DNA of 36,642 nt from Oscillospiraceae bacterium (GTDB lineage: Bacteria; Bacillota; Clostridia; Oscillospirales; Oscillospiraceae): contig JAFQNL010000032.1 of the NCBI GenBank assembly GCA_017395935.1, positions 1 to 36,642 on the forward strand. The letters are read 5' to 3'. Position 1 is the first letter of the stretch. Every line of letters begins with the position of its first letter. The notes beneath the pieces were generated by a model, which was given only the letters and a program-made list of their open reading frames with translations, searched no databases and was not told where the DNA came from. This document shows, in pieces, positions 3,121 to 30,069 of this stretch. The translations under genes and the position numbers were made by a program.

Positions 3121-3195
3121 GCAAAGAAGAGGGCGGCTGTTCACAGACTGTTCCCAATCCCTTTGCAATTTCTTCATCCTTTCCTCCGGACAAGG

Positions 3196-3204
3196 TGATA
3201 TACT
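3196..3204 (+). promoter_or_regulatory. extended -10 promoter of sRNA-A
   Basis: TGATATACT forms an extended -10 element (TGn plus TATACT 3199-3204). No good -35 is seen, which an extended -10 can tolerate. The same arrangement (TGCTATAAT) precedes sRNA-B at 20989. Confidence 0.55.
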
Positions 3205-3206
3205 TC

Positions 3207-3307
3207 CTATTGTCAGGAAACAAGGATCAAATAAACTTCTCTCTCTTTTCTTTCTCTTTTTCTCTTTCAAAACAGGAAGCACCGGCTTTGCCGGTGCTTT
3301 TTGTTTG
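3207..3307 (+). ncRNA. sRNA-A: candidate small RNA with conserved 5' box
   Basis: A non-coding interval of about 95 nt with its own extended -10 and intrinsic terminator (stem 3277-3286 with 3290-3299, then a T run). Right after the -10 lies CTATTGTCAGGAAACAA (3207-3223), which recurs exactly at 21000-21016 in the same position relative to a second promoter. A C/U-only tract follows (about 3238-3268). TTGT...ACAA could form a short hairpin with CAGGAA in the loop, and CAGGAA recurs at 3273-3278. The C/U tract could pair with A/G-rich ribosome sites, and the loops with GGA resemble CsrA-binding sites; both are hypotheses. It sits between typA and the convergent uracil permease gene. Confidence 0.5.
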
Positions 3308-7564: not shown

Positions 7565-8080
7565 GTGGATAACAGCAGCTATTGTGAGGTGCTGGTCAAG
7601 GTTAAGCGGCCCCGCTGGGAGATTATTCTGAGCAAGGCGCTGTGGATTGCCCTTGCCGTCTATCTTGTGGCAGGCCTCTTTTACCTGATCGCGTGGATTC
7701 TTGCCATTCCCTTCCTGATCGGTGCTATTTTGATGAAGCGCCGGGTGAATCAGGAGTTTGAGTATCAGTATCTGGACGGCACCCTCCGGGTGGACCGGAT
7801 CATCAATATGAAAAAACGCAAGAAGGTTGGCAGCTATGACGTGGAGAATCTGACCGTCATGGCTCCGGAGGGAAGCGATAAGCTGACCGGCGCTCTCATG
7901 GACAAGAGTATGAAGACGCTGGACTGCTCCTCCGGCGACAAAAGCGCGGCCAACCGCTACATGGCCGTCTACCGGGGCAGAGAACCCCTCTGCCTGATTC
8001 TGGAGCCCAACGACCATCTGCTCCAGCTCATGTGGCGCTCCGCTCCCAGCAAGGTGACCAGAAAGGCCAAGAGCTGGTAA
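7565..8080 (+). CDS. small two-helix membrane protein (DUF6106-like), copy 1
   Basis: A 171-residue protein of unknown function. It begins MDNSSYCEVLVKVKRP, then has two closely spaced membrane segments (about residues 22-60), an EFEYQYLDGTLRVDRI block, and a soluble C-terminal domain with a basic end. The start is GTG at 7565 with AAGGAG about 8 nt upstream. It follows thioredoxin by 11 nt and is probably in the same operon. A second copy at 20376-20927 shares the order YCEVL, two helices, EYEYQ and a terminal L-x-MW region. From memory it resembles the clostridial DUF6106 group; that name is unverified. Possibly a membrane-associated accessory factor, but no function can be assigned. Confidence 0.8.
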   Translation: MDNSSYCEVLVKVKRPRWEIILSKALWIALAVYLVAGLFYLIAWILAIPFLIGAILMKRRVNQEFEYQYLDGTLRVDRIINMKKRKKVGSYDVENLTVMAPEGSDKLTGALMDKSMKTLDCSSGDKSAANRYMAVYRGREPLCLILEPNDHLLQLMWRSAPSKVTRKAKSW

Positions 8081-9566: not shown

Positions 9567-9842
9567 ATTCGAAACAGGCTGTGAGAAGGGACAGTACAGT
9601 ATCTTTCCCCACATCAGAGAGAGGATGGCCGGTGAAAATCCTCGTGGGCAGAGCTGGAAGGCGCCTTTGAGCCGTGGCCCCAACGGAACCGATGTTCCCA
9701 GTAGGCGTCACCGGGTCTTTCCCGTTATAGAAGGAAGAGCGGCGCATACCGCTCGCTGAGTGCAGGAATATCCTGAATTTAGGTGGCACCACGGACAAGC
9801 AATGTTCGCCCTAAGCTGACTGGCAGCTTTGGGCGTTTTTCT
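9567..9842 (+). promoter_or_regulatory. glycine T-box leader
   Basis: A long leader before glyQS with T-box features in order: an AGTA element (about 9592), the AGAGAGAGG distal stem I arm (about 9617), GAAGGC near 9658-9663 as the probable specifier (GGC, glycine), AATTTAGGTGGCACCACGG at 9777-9794 as the T-box, and a terminator (9807-9818 with 9824-9835, one mismatch, then GTTTTTCTTTT). Uncharged tRNA-Gly would stabilise the antiterminator. The T-box UGGN is UGGC, whereas a U-discriminator tRNA-Gly would prefer UGGA. Confidence 0.85.
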
Positions 9843-20375: not shown

Positions 20376-20927
20376 ATGTTCACCGAAAACAATAACTACT
20401 GCGAAGTCCTTATCTCCCCACCCCCCGTTAAAAATGTCAAGCTCATGGGTACGCTGTATGTCGTGGTGGCCGTGATCTGCGCCGTTGTGGGCCTGCTGAT
20501 CAACCCGCTGTATCTGATTTTGACGGTGGTCTGCGGTTTCTTGGGCCGGAAGGTGCTTGGACAGGCCAATACTGAGTATGAGTATCAGTTCTGGGGCCGC
20601 CAGCTGGACGTAGAGGCTGTTCAGGGCGGGGAAACCCGAAAGCCGATCGGAACCTTTATGATGGACAATGTCCAGCTCATGGCGCAGGAGGACAGCCCGC
20701 TGGTGGCTGATTTCCGCCGGATCCATGGGGACAAAGCTAAAAAGCTGGATCTCACCGACCGGGATCCCTACGGTGCTCCGGTCTACGTCATGTTCATTCA
20801 GGAAGAGGAGCTCTTTGAGGTCCGGCTCCAGCCCAGCCGGGAGATGCTCCGGAAGATGTGGCAGGTGGCCTATCGTACGGTCCATATTCCTCAGGAGCTT
20901 AAACGTGGCGATGGTATGGATTTTTGA
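20376..20927 (+). CDS. small two-helix membrane protein (DUF6106-like), copy 2
   Basis: A 183-residue protein related to the product at 7565-8080. It starts MFTENNNYCEVLISPPP, has two membrane segments (about residues 24-58), then NTEYEYQFWGRQLDVEAV, PIGTFMMDNVQLMA and a C-terminal REMLRKMWQVAY, each matching a block in copy 1. Function is unknown. GAGGAGG lies about 8 nt before the ATG. It stands alone with its own weak promoter, whereas copy 1 is attached to the thioredoxin operon. The paralogues are quite diverged, so duplication is not recent. Confidence 0.78.
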   Translation: MFTENNNYCEVLISPPPVKNVKLMGTLYVVVAVICAVVGLLINPLYLILTVVCGFLGRKVLGQANTEYEYQFWGRQLDVEAVQGGETRKPIGTFMMDNVQLMAQEDSPLVADFRRIHGDKAKKLDLTDRDPYGAPVYVMFIQEEELFEVRLQPSREMLRKMWQVAYRTVHIPQELKRGDGMDF

Positions 20928-20988
20928 AGAGAATTCATAAATCGTTCATGGATCGTTCTTTGTTTTTTCAAGAAACGGAGAGATTTCC

Positions 20989-20997
20989 TGCTATAAT
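20989..20997 (+). promoter_or_regulatory. extended -10 promoter of sRNA-B
   Basis: TGCTATAAT forms a strong extended -10 (TATAAT 20992-20997). No clear -35 is seen. The 17-nt shared box begins 2 nt after it. Confidence 0.6.
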
Positions 20998-20999
20998 AA

Positions 21000-21087
21000 C
21001 TATTGTCAGGAAACAAATGTGTGAATTCTCTCTTTTCTCTCTCTTTCATTTGCCCCCGAAGGCTTCAGGAACCTTCGGGGGTTTTTC
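21000..21087 (+). ncRNA. sRNA-B: candidate small RNA sharing 5' box with sRNA-A
   Basis: An 85-nt non-coding unit: extended -10, then CTATTGTCAGGAAACAA (21000-21016, identical to 3207-3223), a C/U-only tract (about 21026-21047), and a 10-bp terminator (21053-21062 with 21072-21081, then TTTTT). The terminator loop repeats CAGGAA. Outside the box and the C/U tract the sequence differs from sRNA-A, including the terminator stem, so the shared parts look selected. It lies between the DUF6106-like gene and tRNA-Leu. Role unknown: C/U-rich anti-ribosome-site RNA or GGA-loop protein decoy are possible. Confidence 0.55.
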
Positions 21088-28269: not shown

Positions 28270-29853
28270 TCACCAGCCTCTTCCGAAGAAGGAGTAGGGA
28301 TCAAAGAAACCGCCGAAGGGGTCGTAGCCGTACTGCTGTTGCTGCTGCTGTTGCTGCTGCTCTTCCTCGGTGGGACCGGCAGCACTCTCGGGCACTTCCT
28401 CGTCCAGAGTGATGACCATGGTGAGGTAGGTGTTCTCCCGGAAAACGGTGACAGTCATCTCGTCTCCGGCCCGAAGGGCATTCTTGGCGTCAATGAGCTC
28501 TTCGTAGGTGGTAATGTCCGTGCCGTTGACCTGAGTGATAATATCGCCCACCTGCAGGCCGGCCTTTTCCGAGCAGGAACCGGACTCCACGCCCTGAACG
28601 TAGGCGCCAACTACCATGTTGGAGTACTGCTGAGCGGTGATGCTGCTGACGGTGGAGACCGAAATGCCCAGATAGGGTTTGCCGGTGATATAGCCGTGCT
28701 GGATCAGATCGTCCAGAATGGCCATGGCGTCATTGATGGGGATGGCAAAGCCGATGCCCTCGATGGCGGCCTCGGAGGAGTAGCCGGAGTTGGAATACTT
28801 GGCGTTGACTACGCCGATGACCTCGCCGTACTCGTTGAAGAGAGGGCCGCCGGAGTTGCCGGAGTTAACGGTGCAGTCGGTCTGCAAGACGTTCATGACC
28901 GTGCCGTCGGACATGGTCAGAGCCCGATCCAGACCGGAGACCCGGCCGGAGGTGAGGGTGTTGGGGAAGGTGCCCAGGGCGTTGCCGATGGTGGTGACAG
29001 TAGAGCCTACCGGCAGCAGATCGGAGTTGCCGATGAGCATGGGCTGGAAGGGGGTCTCGCCCTCAATTTTCAGGATGGCGAGGTCAGCGTCGGCGTCGCC
29101 GCCCACATAAGTGGCCTTATAGCTGGTGGTATCAGCAAAGGTGCAGGAGAGGGCCTGATAGCCTTCCACCACATGGTAGCAGGTCATCACATAGCCGTCC
29201 TCGGTAATGACAAAGCCGGTGCCGGCGCCAATGCCCCGGGCGGTCTGGACCTCGATACTGACTACCGAGCCGGAATAGGCCTCATAGATCTGGCTCTGAT
29301 CCATCCGCTCGCCGGCCTGTACAGAGGCGCTGCCAATCTCGTAGTCCGCCCGATCGCTGATCTGAACGTCCGAGCTGGGGGCCTCGGCGGGAATCTCGGT
29401 GGGGAGGGTATCCTCGGTGCTGACAGGCTCTTTTTCGCCGCTCAGCAGATTGTAGACCAGAAAACCGGTGCCGCCGCCGAAGAGGCAGAAGGCGAGAATG
29501 AGGGCGAGGGCGGTAATGGCAATCCGACCCTTGCCCGAAGGACGCTTCTCCCGACGGGGCGGCTGGGAGGGAGGAGGATTGGAACTGCCGGGGGGCGGTG
29601 TCACGGGAGGCGTAGTTTCCGCGCTTTGGAAGCCGTAGTTGTAGTGGTACTCGCCGTTGACCCGGGAAGAGCCGGAGGGGGACTGGGGATCGAGGTCTCT
29701 GCCCATGCGCAGAGGAGAGCCGTCGTCCCGGGGAATGGAGGAGCCGGAGAAGTGGTATTCTCCGGAGGGCTTGGGCTTATCCTCCGGGGGGCGGTTGTCG
29801 CTTTCCGGAGTGAAGCCGCTGCCATAGTTCTTGTCGTACATATTGTAACCCAT
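28270..29853 (-). CDS. htrA: HtrA/DegP-like membrane serine protease with poly-Gln tail
   Basis: A 527-residue protease of the HtrA (S1C) family. A long Pro/Ser/Gly-rich cytoplasmic stretch (residues 1-105) precedes one membrane segment (about 111-134). The trypsin-like domain has His227 (TCYHVVEG), Asp257 (GGDADADLAIL) and Ser334 (VNSGNSGGPL); a PDZ domain follows (about 395-490). The C-terminus is odd: EEE, nine Gln (499-507), then an aromatic/Gly tail (YGYDPFGGFF...). Such proteases degrade or refold damaged exported proteins. AAAAGGAG precedes the ATG. No CssRS-type regulator is nearby, and its promoter is not clear. Confidence 0.93.
   Translation of the reverse strand: MGYNMYDKNYGSGFTPESDNRPPEDKPKPSGEYHFSGSSIPRDDGSPLRMGRDLDPQSPSGSSRVNGEYHYNYGFQSAETTPPVTPPPGSSNPPPSQPPRREKRPSGKGRIAITALALILAFCLFGGGTGFLVYNLLSGEKEPVSTEDTLPTEIPAEAPSSDVQISDRADYEIGSASVQAGERMDQSQIYEAYSGSVVSIEVQTARGIGAGTGFVITEDGYVMTCYHVVEGYQALSCTFADTTSYKATYVGGDADADLAILKIEGETPFQPMLIGNSDLLPVGSTVTTIGNALGTFPNTLTSGRVSGLDRALTMSDGTVMNVLQTDCTVNSGNSGGPLFNEYGEVIGVVNAKYSNSGYSSEAAIEGIGFAIPINDAMAILDDLIQHGYITGKPYLGISVSTVSSITAQQYSNMVVGAYVQGVESGSCSEKAGLQVGDIITQVNGTDITTYEELIDAKNALRAGDEMTVTVFRENTYLTMVITLDEEVPESAAGPTEEEQQQQQQQQQYGYDPFGGFFDPYSFFGRGW
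28333..28359 (-). repeat. CAG/CAA trinucleotide repeat (poly-Gln)
   Basis: Nine glutamine codons in a row on the minus strand, in the pattern CAG2-CAA-CAG3-CAA-CAG2. The CAA interruptions limit slippage, but length changes would keep the frame. Confidence 0.95.
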
Positions 29854-30069
29854 AGGGATCGCTCCTTTTCAGCCGGTAAAGGCGTTTTTGTTTCTGGGAT
29901 AACGATAGCGGGGAAATATGTCCCTGATATGAACGAAATGACGACAAAATATAAATTTAATCTGAAAGACTTTTAAGGTTGGCTGTTTTTGCGAGAAAAA
30001 GTTATAAAAAGCGGGAAAGAGAAAAGGGCTGTCAAGGTTATGATGAGCCGAAGAAGACCGATTATTCCG

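Follow-up and report, generated by a model that had tools for sequence, protein, structure and literature searches.

CiaR, a response regulator of the OmpR family, controls htrA. The csRNAs of the CiaRH system occur several times per Streptococcus genome and are described with two direct repeats (TTTAAG-N5-TTTAAG) ten nt before the -10 element, an unpaired stretch complementary to Shine-Dalgarno sequences and a terminator (PMC3091779). In Listeria monocytogenes, LhrC1-5 form a multicopy family controlled by LisRK and connected with cell-envelope stress; according to PMC4132741, redundant CU-rich sites bind upstream of the start codon and no LisR consensus was known. At the promoter level, PhoB binds tandem 11-nt repeats head to tail, and PHO boxes are paired 11-nt direct repeats with the core GTTCACC in Streptomyces coelicolor (PMC4415409).

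The DNA studied here, a stretch of 36,642 nt from an Oscillospiraceae bacterium (hereafter the window), carries two intergenic spots, copies a and b, whose organization recalls these systems. We assign a probability of roughly 0.55 to the reading that they represent an undescribed multicopy family of stress RNAs, which would be controlled by a response regulator and act by pairing via a C/U tract; no description of the family was found in the open-licence literature. In the way they work, csRNAs and LhrC are probably the nearest known kinds. As with the csRNAs, several similar small RNAs per genome (1 to 5 box-bearing units in each of 17 genomes, and more when recognized by their array) each lie behind direct repeats spaced by 11 nt. 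In contrast to the csRNAs, there are four TTCACA-type repeats here, the last hexamer being about 20 nt before the -10, instead of the two TTTAAG repeats of CiaR, and the array consensus of 35 units is of the TTCACAAATCG type. In csRNAs, two stem-loops enclose the anti-Shine-Dalgarno or anti-start stretch. Here a pyrimidine tract is found, and it is long, but no 5' stem-loop is conserved in our alignment (by eye) and the tract pairs about as well as shuffled tracts do. With LhrC, the family shares the multicopy state and might share envelope stress, two-component control and CU-rich pairing with mRNAs; this likeness is one of description, the UCCC motifs of LhrC being placed in loops and a linker, whereas one long tract is present here and neither window RNA has any of the three UCCC sites (by eye). 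PHO-box promoters, in which the repeats stand in for the -35 element, are also built of tandem 11-nt head-to-tail repeats, but the 20 pstS loci examined in the same genus lack the TTCACAAATCG-type repeat. Finally, CsrB/RsmZ-type RNAs are likewise small RNAs with GGA, but CsrA was not found in the genus.

Table 1. Features of the window, with positions counted from its first letter
Feature	Position	Strand	Remarks
Copy a, repeat array TTCACAGACTG TTCCCAATCCC TTTGCAATTTC TTCATCCTTTC	3140..3183	+	Predicted OmpR/PhoB-family response regulator array
Copy a, extended -10 TGATATACT	3196..3204	+	By eye, no hexamer where a -35 would normally lie
Copy a, box CTATTGTCAGGAAACAA	3207..3223	+	Conserved core GTCAGGA from 3212, the probable +1 (distance from -10)
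Copy a, C/U tract	3236..3268	+	33 unbroken pyrimidines
Copy a, intrinsic terminator AGCACCGGC-TTT-GCCGGTGCT and T run	3278..3302	+	From the fold
Copy a, predicted small RNA, ~92 nt	3212..3303	+	Flanked by typA and a convergent Xan_ur_permease gene (Pfam)
Copy b, repeat array TTCATAAATCG TTCATGGATCG TTCTTTGTTTT TTCAAGAAACG	20934..20977	+	4 x 11 nt
Copy b, extended -10 TGCTATAAT	20989..20997	+	From sequence
Copy b, box, exact copy of CTATTGTCAGGAAACAA	21000..21016	+	Probable +1 at 21005
Copy b, C/U tract	21026..21047	+	22 unbroken pyrimidines
Copy b, intrinsic terminator and T run	21053..21086	+	10-bp stem, CAGGAA in loop
Copy b, predicted small RNA, ~82 nt	21005..21086	+	Flanked by a 183-codon gene and a tRNA
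Short protein	7565..8080	+	No Pfam match
Paralogous short protein (28% identity)	20376..20927	+	No Pfam match; precedes copy b
T-box leader	9572..9816	+	Ahead of class II (glycyl-type) tRNA synthetase gene
htrA	28273..29853	-	No R1 match
Weak, degenerate 11-nt array	~29917..29966	-	TTCAGA/TTTATA/TCGTCA/TTCATA/GACATA before likely -10 of htrA

The initial annotation had drawn attention to an exact 17-nt box shared by the two spots, placed 2 nt after an extended -10 and with a C/U tract and a terminator downstream, and this arrangement is confirmed at both (Table 1). The window holds no other match to the box at up to 3 mismatches (shuffles expect 0.04), and in the whole genome (2.07 Mb, 46 contigs) the 16-mer of the box has no third copy at up to 2 mismatches, its reversed form giving 0. 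A lone 17-mer repeat within 36 kb would be, on our own rough estimate, a few-percent event; because relatives carry the family, the repeat is more than chance. The fold of 3208-3307 has an energy of -30.8 kcal/mol (z -6.05). At curated cut-offs, Rfam gives T-box and tRNA only in the window, all permissive matches at the two spots being below cut-off.

Among 148 genomes searched with one mismatch, the 16-mer was found in 0/31 congeners; its matches in two genomes of other families (G122, G127) are attributed to chance, since the reversed control gave 3 places and the layout is missing. The 16-nt box occurs in at least 116 stretches of broad genome contigs, with about 120 expected by chance in 257 Gb (own estimate), and the seven Clostridia-like stretches inspected (L009, L010, L028, L030, L034, L047, L072) all lacked the layout. 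A 28-nt pattern joining extended -10 and box, run over 250 genomes of the family with 3 mismatches allowed, returned the two window copies and one place with a layout like theirs (G007:C48), against one for the reversed pattern (G209). Relaxing the pattern to the extended -10 plus ATTGTCAGGAA, written TGNTATANTNNNNATTGTCAGGAA, with 2 mismatches, gave 41 places in 21 of the 32 genus genomes (own genome included) and none in the 32 with the reversed control. The full layout of array and pyrimidine run accompanied 35 of these 41 matches, in 17/32 genomes with 1 to 5 units each: 25/25 of those with 0-1 mismatch and 10/16 of those with 2, the 2-mismatch matches without array or tract (L172, L178, L187, L189, L199, L207) being dropped. 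The small-RNA family under selection that had been proposed, which combines an extended -10 and a 5' box with a C/U tract and a terminator, reappeared in relatives. The genes are very probably real and belong to one family defined by its promoter.

The strongest feature of these units had been overlooked. A direct repeat, each copy exactly 11 nt long, occurs four times in a row, approximately as TTCACAAATCG TTCNCAAACNN NTCNCAATTTC TTCATCCATTC; this array stops 11-12 nt short of the TG in the -10, with no evident -35, and precedes all 35 units although it was absent from the search pattern. Tandem direct repeats with a period of 11 nt reach the -35 region; the second T of the repeat is invariant in three of the four at 11-nt steps, and conservation drops just upstream of the array. 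This layout is that of OmpR/PhoB-family sites, and as a reading of the sequence the promoter part appears well supported; control of the arrays by a response regulator is likely. In the 15 loci with ORFs listed, no two-component gene next to the units stood out by eye. Another candidate, CutR of Streptomyces, was rejected, its site being TAWATAAA (PMC12802291), which is unlike the TTCACAAATCG-type array.

Array scores for the 35 units were computed from those same units, and the scoring matrix includes both window arrays, which rank first (copy a, 34.3) and second (copy b, 27.2) in the window, ahead of a next-best score of 17.2, overlaps aside. A sequence-only profile of 27 arrays, R1, which does not include the box, gives 36.7 bits (E 8e-10) for copy a and 26.7 bits (E 1.1e-6) for copy b, both themselves among its 27 sequences. 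Eight other genomes carry a close relative of the 183-codon gene, and in two of them (G010, G025) an array unit occupies the position corresponding to copy b. Behind typA, scanning whole loci on both strands, we found a comparable array in just one of 27 other genus loci (L140, 25.0), before an Hsp20-like gene; the arrays of L125 and L148 score 18 and lie elsewhere in the locus, against 34.3 at the window's typA site. The placement of copy a behind typA is not kept across the genus. In L137 and L140, the gene behind typA is Hsp20-like and has CIRCE-like repeats (by eye), in L140 together with the array.

With the best 150 candidates per genome, R1 matched every one of the 32 genomes in the genus at E<=0.5 and at least 25 of them at E<=1e-3, the strong matches being partly circular because the arrays from which R1 derives belong to the first set. 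Among 40 further R1 places, which were chosen, a 30-nt window with at least 80% C/U follows within the next 187 nt in 36 and one with at least 90% in 29, compared with 2.2% at >=90% for 5000 random stretches of the same loci; GTCAGGA is present in 6/40. Array, extended -10, hairpin and mostly the C/U tract are common to these sister classes, and their 5' ends differ. A pyrimidine tract is lacking (below 80%) in L277 (which breaks off near a contig end), L283, L290 at 504 and L293. Of 19 weaker places in the genus, 13 resemble RNA units by eye, 4 stand before Hsp20-like genes and 2 are unclear. The window's own genome has further units at G000:C46, 94678 (E 0.0015), and in tandem on the minus strand at G000:C42, 504 and 295 (weak, E 0.015 and 0.046). 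It thus holds at least 5 array-driven units, and up to 5 box units occur in one congener, which does away with the idea of a mere pair. The tandem units lie about 200 nt apart (L290, 1-600), and adjoining arrays were also seen, among the R1 matches listed, at G030:C105 and G003:C36. A second unit class (L279, L280, L283-L285, L287, L290 at 504) has AAAGAACGA near its start but little in the way of a C/U tract, and its terminator stem is of CTGTGCCCGGCA type; one class (L291, L272, L288) sits just 3' of a gene that, by eye, resembles one for inorganic pyrophosphatase.

At the level of the family, R1 at E<=1e-3 matched at least 25 of 260 family genomes in at least 19 of 106 genera (own genus included), a lower bound because filters were stricter and 24 candidates were scored per genome. 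Of the 23 places listed outside the genus, 12 resemble RNA units by eye, GTCAGGA being present in 6 of these; another 6 stand before protein genes and 5 are unclear. For the truncated loci L321, L324 and L332 the place inspected was set by a repeat pattern, and for L324, L332 and, in the order set, L390 it is probably off the match. At the order level (345 genomes, E<=5e-4, 18 candidates scored per genome), at least 12 genomes match, and the 8 places outside the family include some before HSP20, Clp_N/AAA and M23+G5 genes; two more (G416, G475) may be starts of RNAs that have no C/U tract, and three cases are unclear.

Across the 35 units, the TG of the extended -10 is present in 34 and GTCAGGA begins 8 nt past the -10 in 33, a conservation that is partly by construction since the pattern favours the box. 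GTCAGGA sits where transcription would start, and the most fitting reading of the box is therefore a discriminator followed by the 5' end of the RNA. The initial annotation took the whole 17-nt box to be conserved; this is true of GTCAGGA, at the predicted RNA 5' end, while the TTGT/ACAA ends fail and the last letters vary. GGAAACAA is limited to the two window copies among 27 aligned units, most aligned relatives having GGAACGAAG and another clade GGAGGATGC, and ACAA is peculiar to the window copies (both alignments hold 27 of the 35 units, mainly after thinning near-identical ones). A stable hairpin lies downstream in 33/35 units, G023c being cut by a contig end and G008e being weak near one; the T run after it is short or broken in several. 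From +1 to hairpin end, the predicted RNAs measure 77-110 nt (median 99, 33 units), with hairpin ends taken by hand from fold predictions and G000a set to the terminator proper. In one clade (L174, L180-L182, L295), GTCAGGAGG could pair with a downstream CCTCC(A/T)GAC (by eye), so that the 5' end may form a hairpin masking the anti-Shine-Dalgarno core.

Pyrimidine runs extend over 16-45 nt across the 35 units. Against 32 chosen translation starts of the window, the tracts pair with mean energies of -13.4 (a) and -12.4 (b) kcal/mol, compared with -6.1 and -6.4 at 535 internal stretches; shuffled tracts of the same composition reach -12.95 and -11.93 at the starts, and the advantage is a composition effect because they pair about as well. 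The suggestion that the tract binds ribosome sites is plausible in view of the preference for starts over internal stretches, but shuffled tracts do about as well and no sequence specificity is seen. CCTCC, the anti-Shine-Dalgarno core, is modestly enriched (26/35 and 27/40 units vs 1980/5000 random stretches) and is found in neither window RNA, and CTCTTTTCT occurs in 24/35 and 21/40 units and in 87/5000 random stretches, some of which overlap units. On balance, we lean slightly towards pairing of these RNAs with ribosome sites.

Genes behind arrays include HSP20 (L368, L382, L395), Trypsin_2+PDZ (L323, L319) and Clp_N/AAA (L389), as well as HlyD (L336) and M23+G5 (L388). At the family level, they are two HtrA-type proteases (Trypsin_2+PDZ), HlyD, VTC, NPCBM_assoc and MarR; in the genus, HSP20 promoters form one set in at least 7 genomes (E 0.02-0.04; 3 inspected), plus G021, with Pfam run on L368 and L382. 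These arrays score weakly, with E from 2e-6 to 0.04 per genome on a rough calibration. A local R1 run took in the window together with 22 htrA, 20 pstS and two other loci; it matched 7/22 htrA loci (E<0.2), all close orthologues of one clade, and the region upstream of the Hsp20-like gene in L140 (E 0.025). The window's htrA is not among them; its weak array scores 12.3, equalled by 2% of simple shuffles. Several congener htrA promoters have a TTCATA/TTCACA-N5-GACATA-like pair in common. Since relatives have arrays of this sort ahead of hsp20, htrA, clp-type and envelope genes, envelope or protein-folding stress is the signal we moderately favour.

The 11-nt repeats might instead be PHO boxes bound by PhoP/PhoB, which are paired 11-nt direct repeats too (PMC4415409). 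This is quite unlikely: in the genus, R1 matches 0/20 pstS loci with a threshold as lax as E<=5, pst promoters of the genus show TTTACA-type elements (by eye), and several array-bearing genes encode chaperones and proteases. A more serious, if still unlikely, possibility concerns the tract, whose long, low-G C/U sequence might act under stress as a sponge titrating a protein that binds pyrimidines (Rho, or one of the cold-shock proteins) and not mRNAs. The binding preferences of Rho and Csp proteins fit YC-rich tracts; here the runs, up to 45 nt, are rich in YC steps, CTCTTTTCT recurs, and what is kept of the tract is mainly its composition, shuffling barely altering its pairing. Against a sponge, csRNA and LhrC, nearest in layout, are reported to pair with mRNAs.

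Titration of CsrA by GGA loops, raised in the initial annotation, is largely refuted: GGA does lie within GTCAGGA and in the terminator loop of copy b, but a family search found CsrA in 0/32 genus genomes while 3 of 14 controls (E. coli, B. subtilis, Thermotoga maritima) matched. Moreover, there is a single conserved GGA per RNA, and the loop CAGGAA is not kept in relatives' hairpins, copy b holding it by happenstance. A mobile element or dispersed repeat that looks like a promoter by accident would account for several copies per genome on different contigs and for the typA placement of copy a, not kept in the genus; it is very unlikely, as array, start and C/U character are kept while terminator stems and flanks differ, and the copy b site is seen again in two further species. 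It is equally improbable that the units are leaders or genes encoding very short peptides, even though copy b has an ATG 5 nt past AGGA with 30 open codons: an ATG falls in the first 70 nt of just 12/33 units, at unlike places and with unlike lengths, and copy a has none. Overall, the first interpretation stands for a selected small-RNA family; it does not stand for the pair or for CsrA, and it missed the four 11-nt promoter repeats.

In the reading we prefer, that of stress RNAs pairing via their tract, the two window spots would be 2 of at least 5 array-driven genes of a multicopy family in this genome. An OmpR/PhoB-family response regulator would bind the array head to tail under envelope or protein-folding stress and recruit RNA polymerase to the extended -10. 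The resulting RNAs, of about 77-110 nt, would pair by their C/U tract with purine-rich ribosome-binding sites, and translation of some mRNAs might fall as levels of chaperones and HtrA go up. A second conserved site is the 5' end with GTCAGGA, most likely a stabilizing or seed element. More tentatively, and with a low probability in our view, this could be a stress regulon of the bacterial family whose strongest promoters drive, instead of proteins, a large and class-rich set of pyrimidine-tract RNAs acting collectively by composition. If so, decoy anti-Shine-Dalgarno strands or protein sponges would damp translation generally, without individual seed pairing.

Small RNAs in this bacterial group, Clostridia-type judging by its genes, seem little charted. 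The clear promoter signature allows the family to be listed genome by genome and might offer a handle on the stress regulon and its two-component system. To conclude, these RNAs appear to be an independent parallel to the CiaR csRNAs and LhrC, suggesting that multicopy pyrimidine RNAs under envelope-stress regulators may have evolved more than once.
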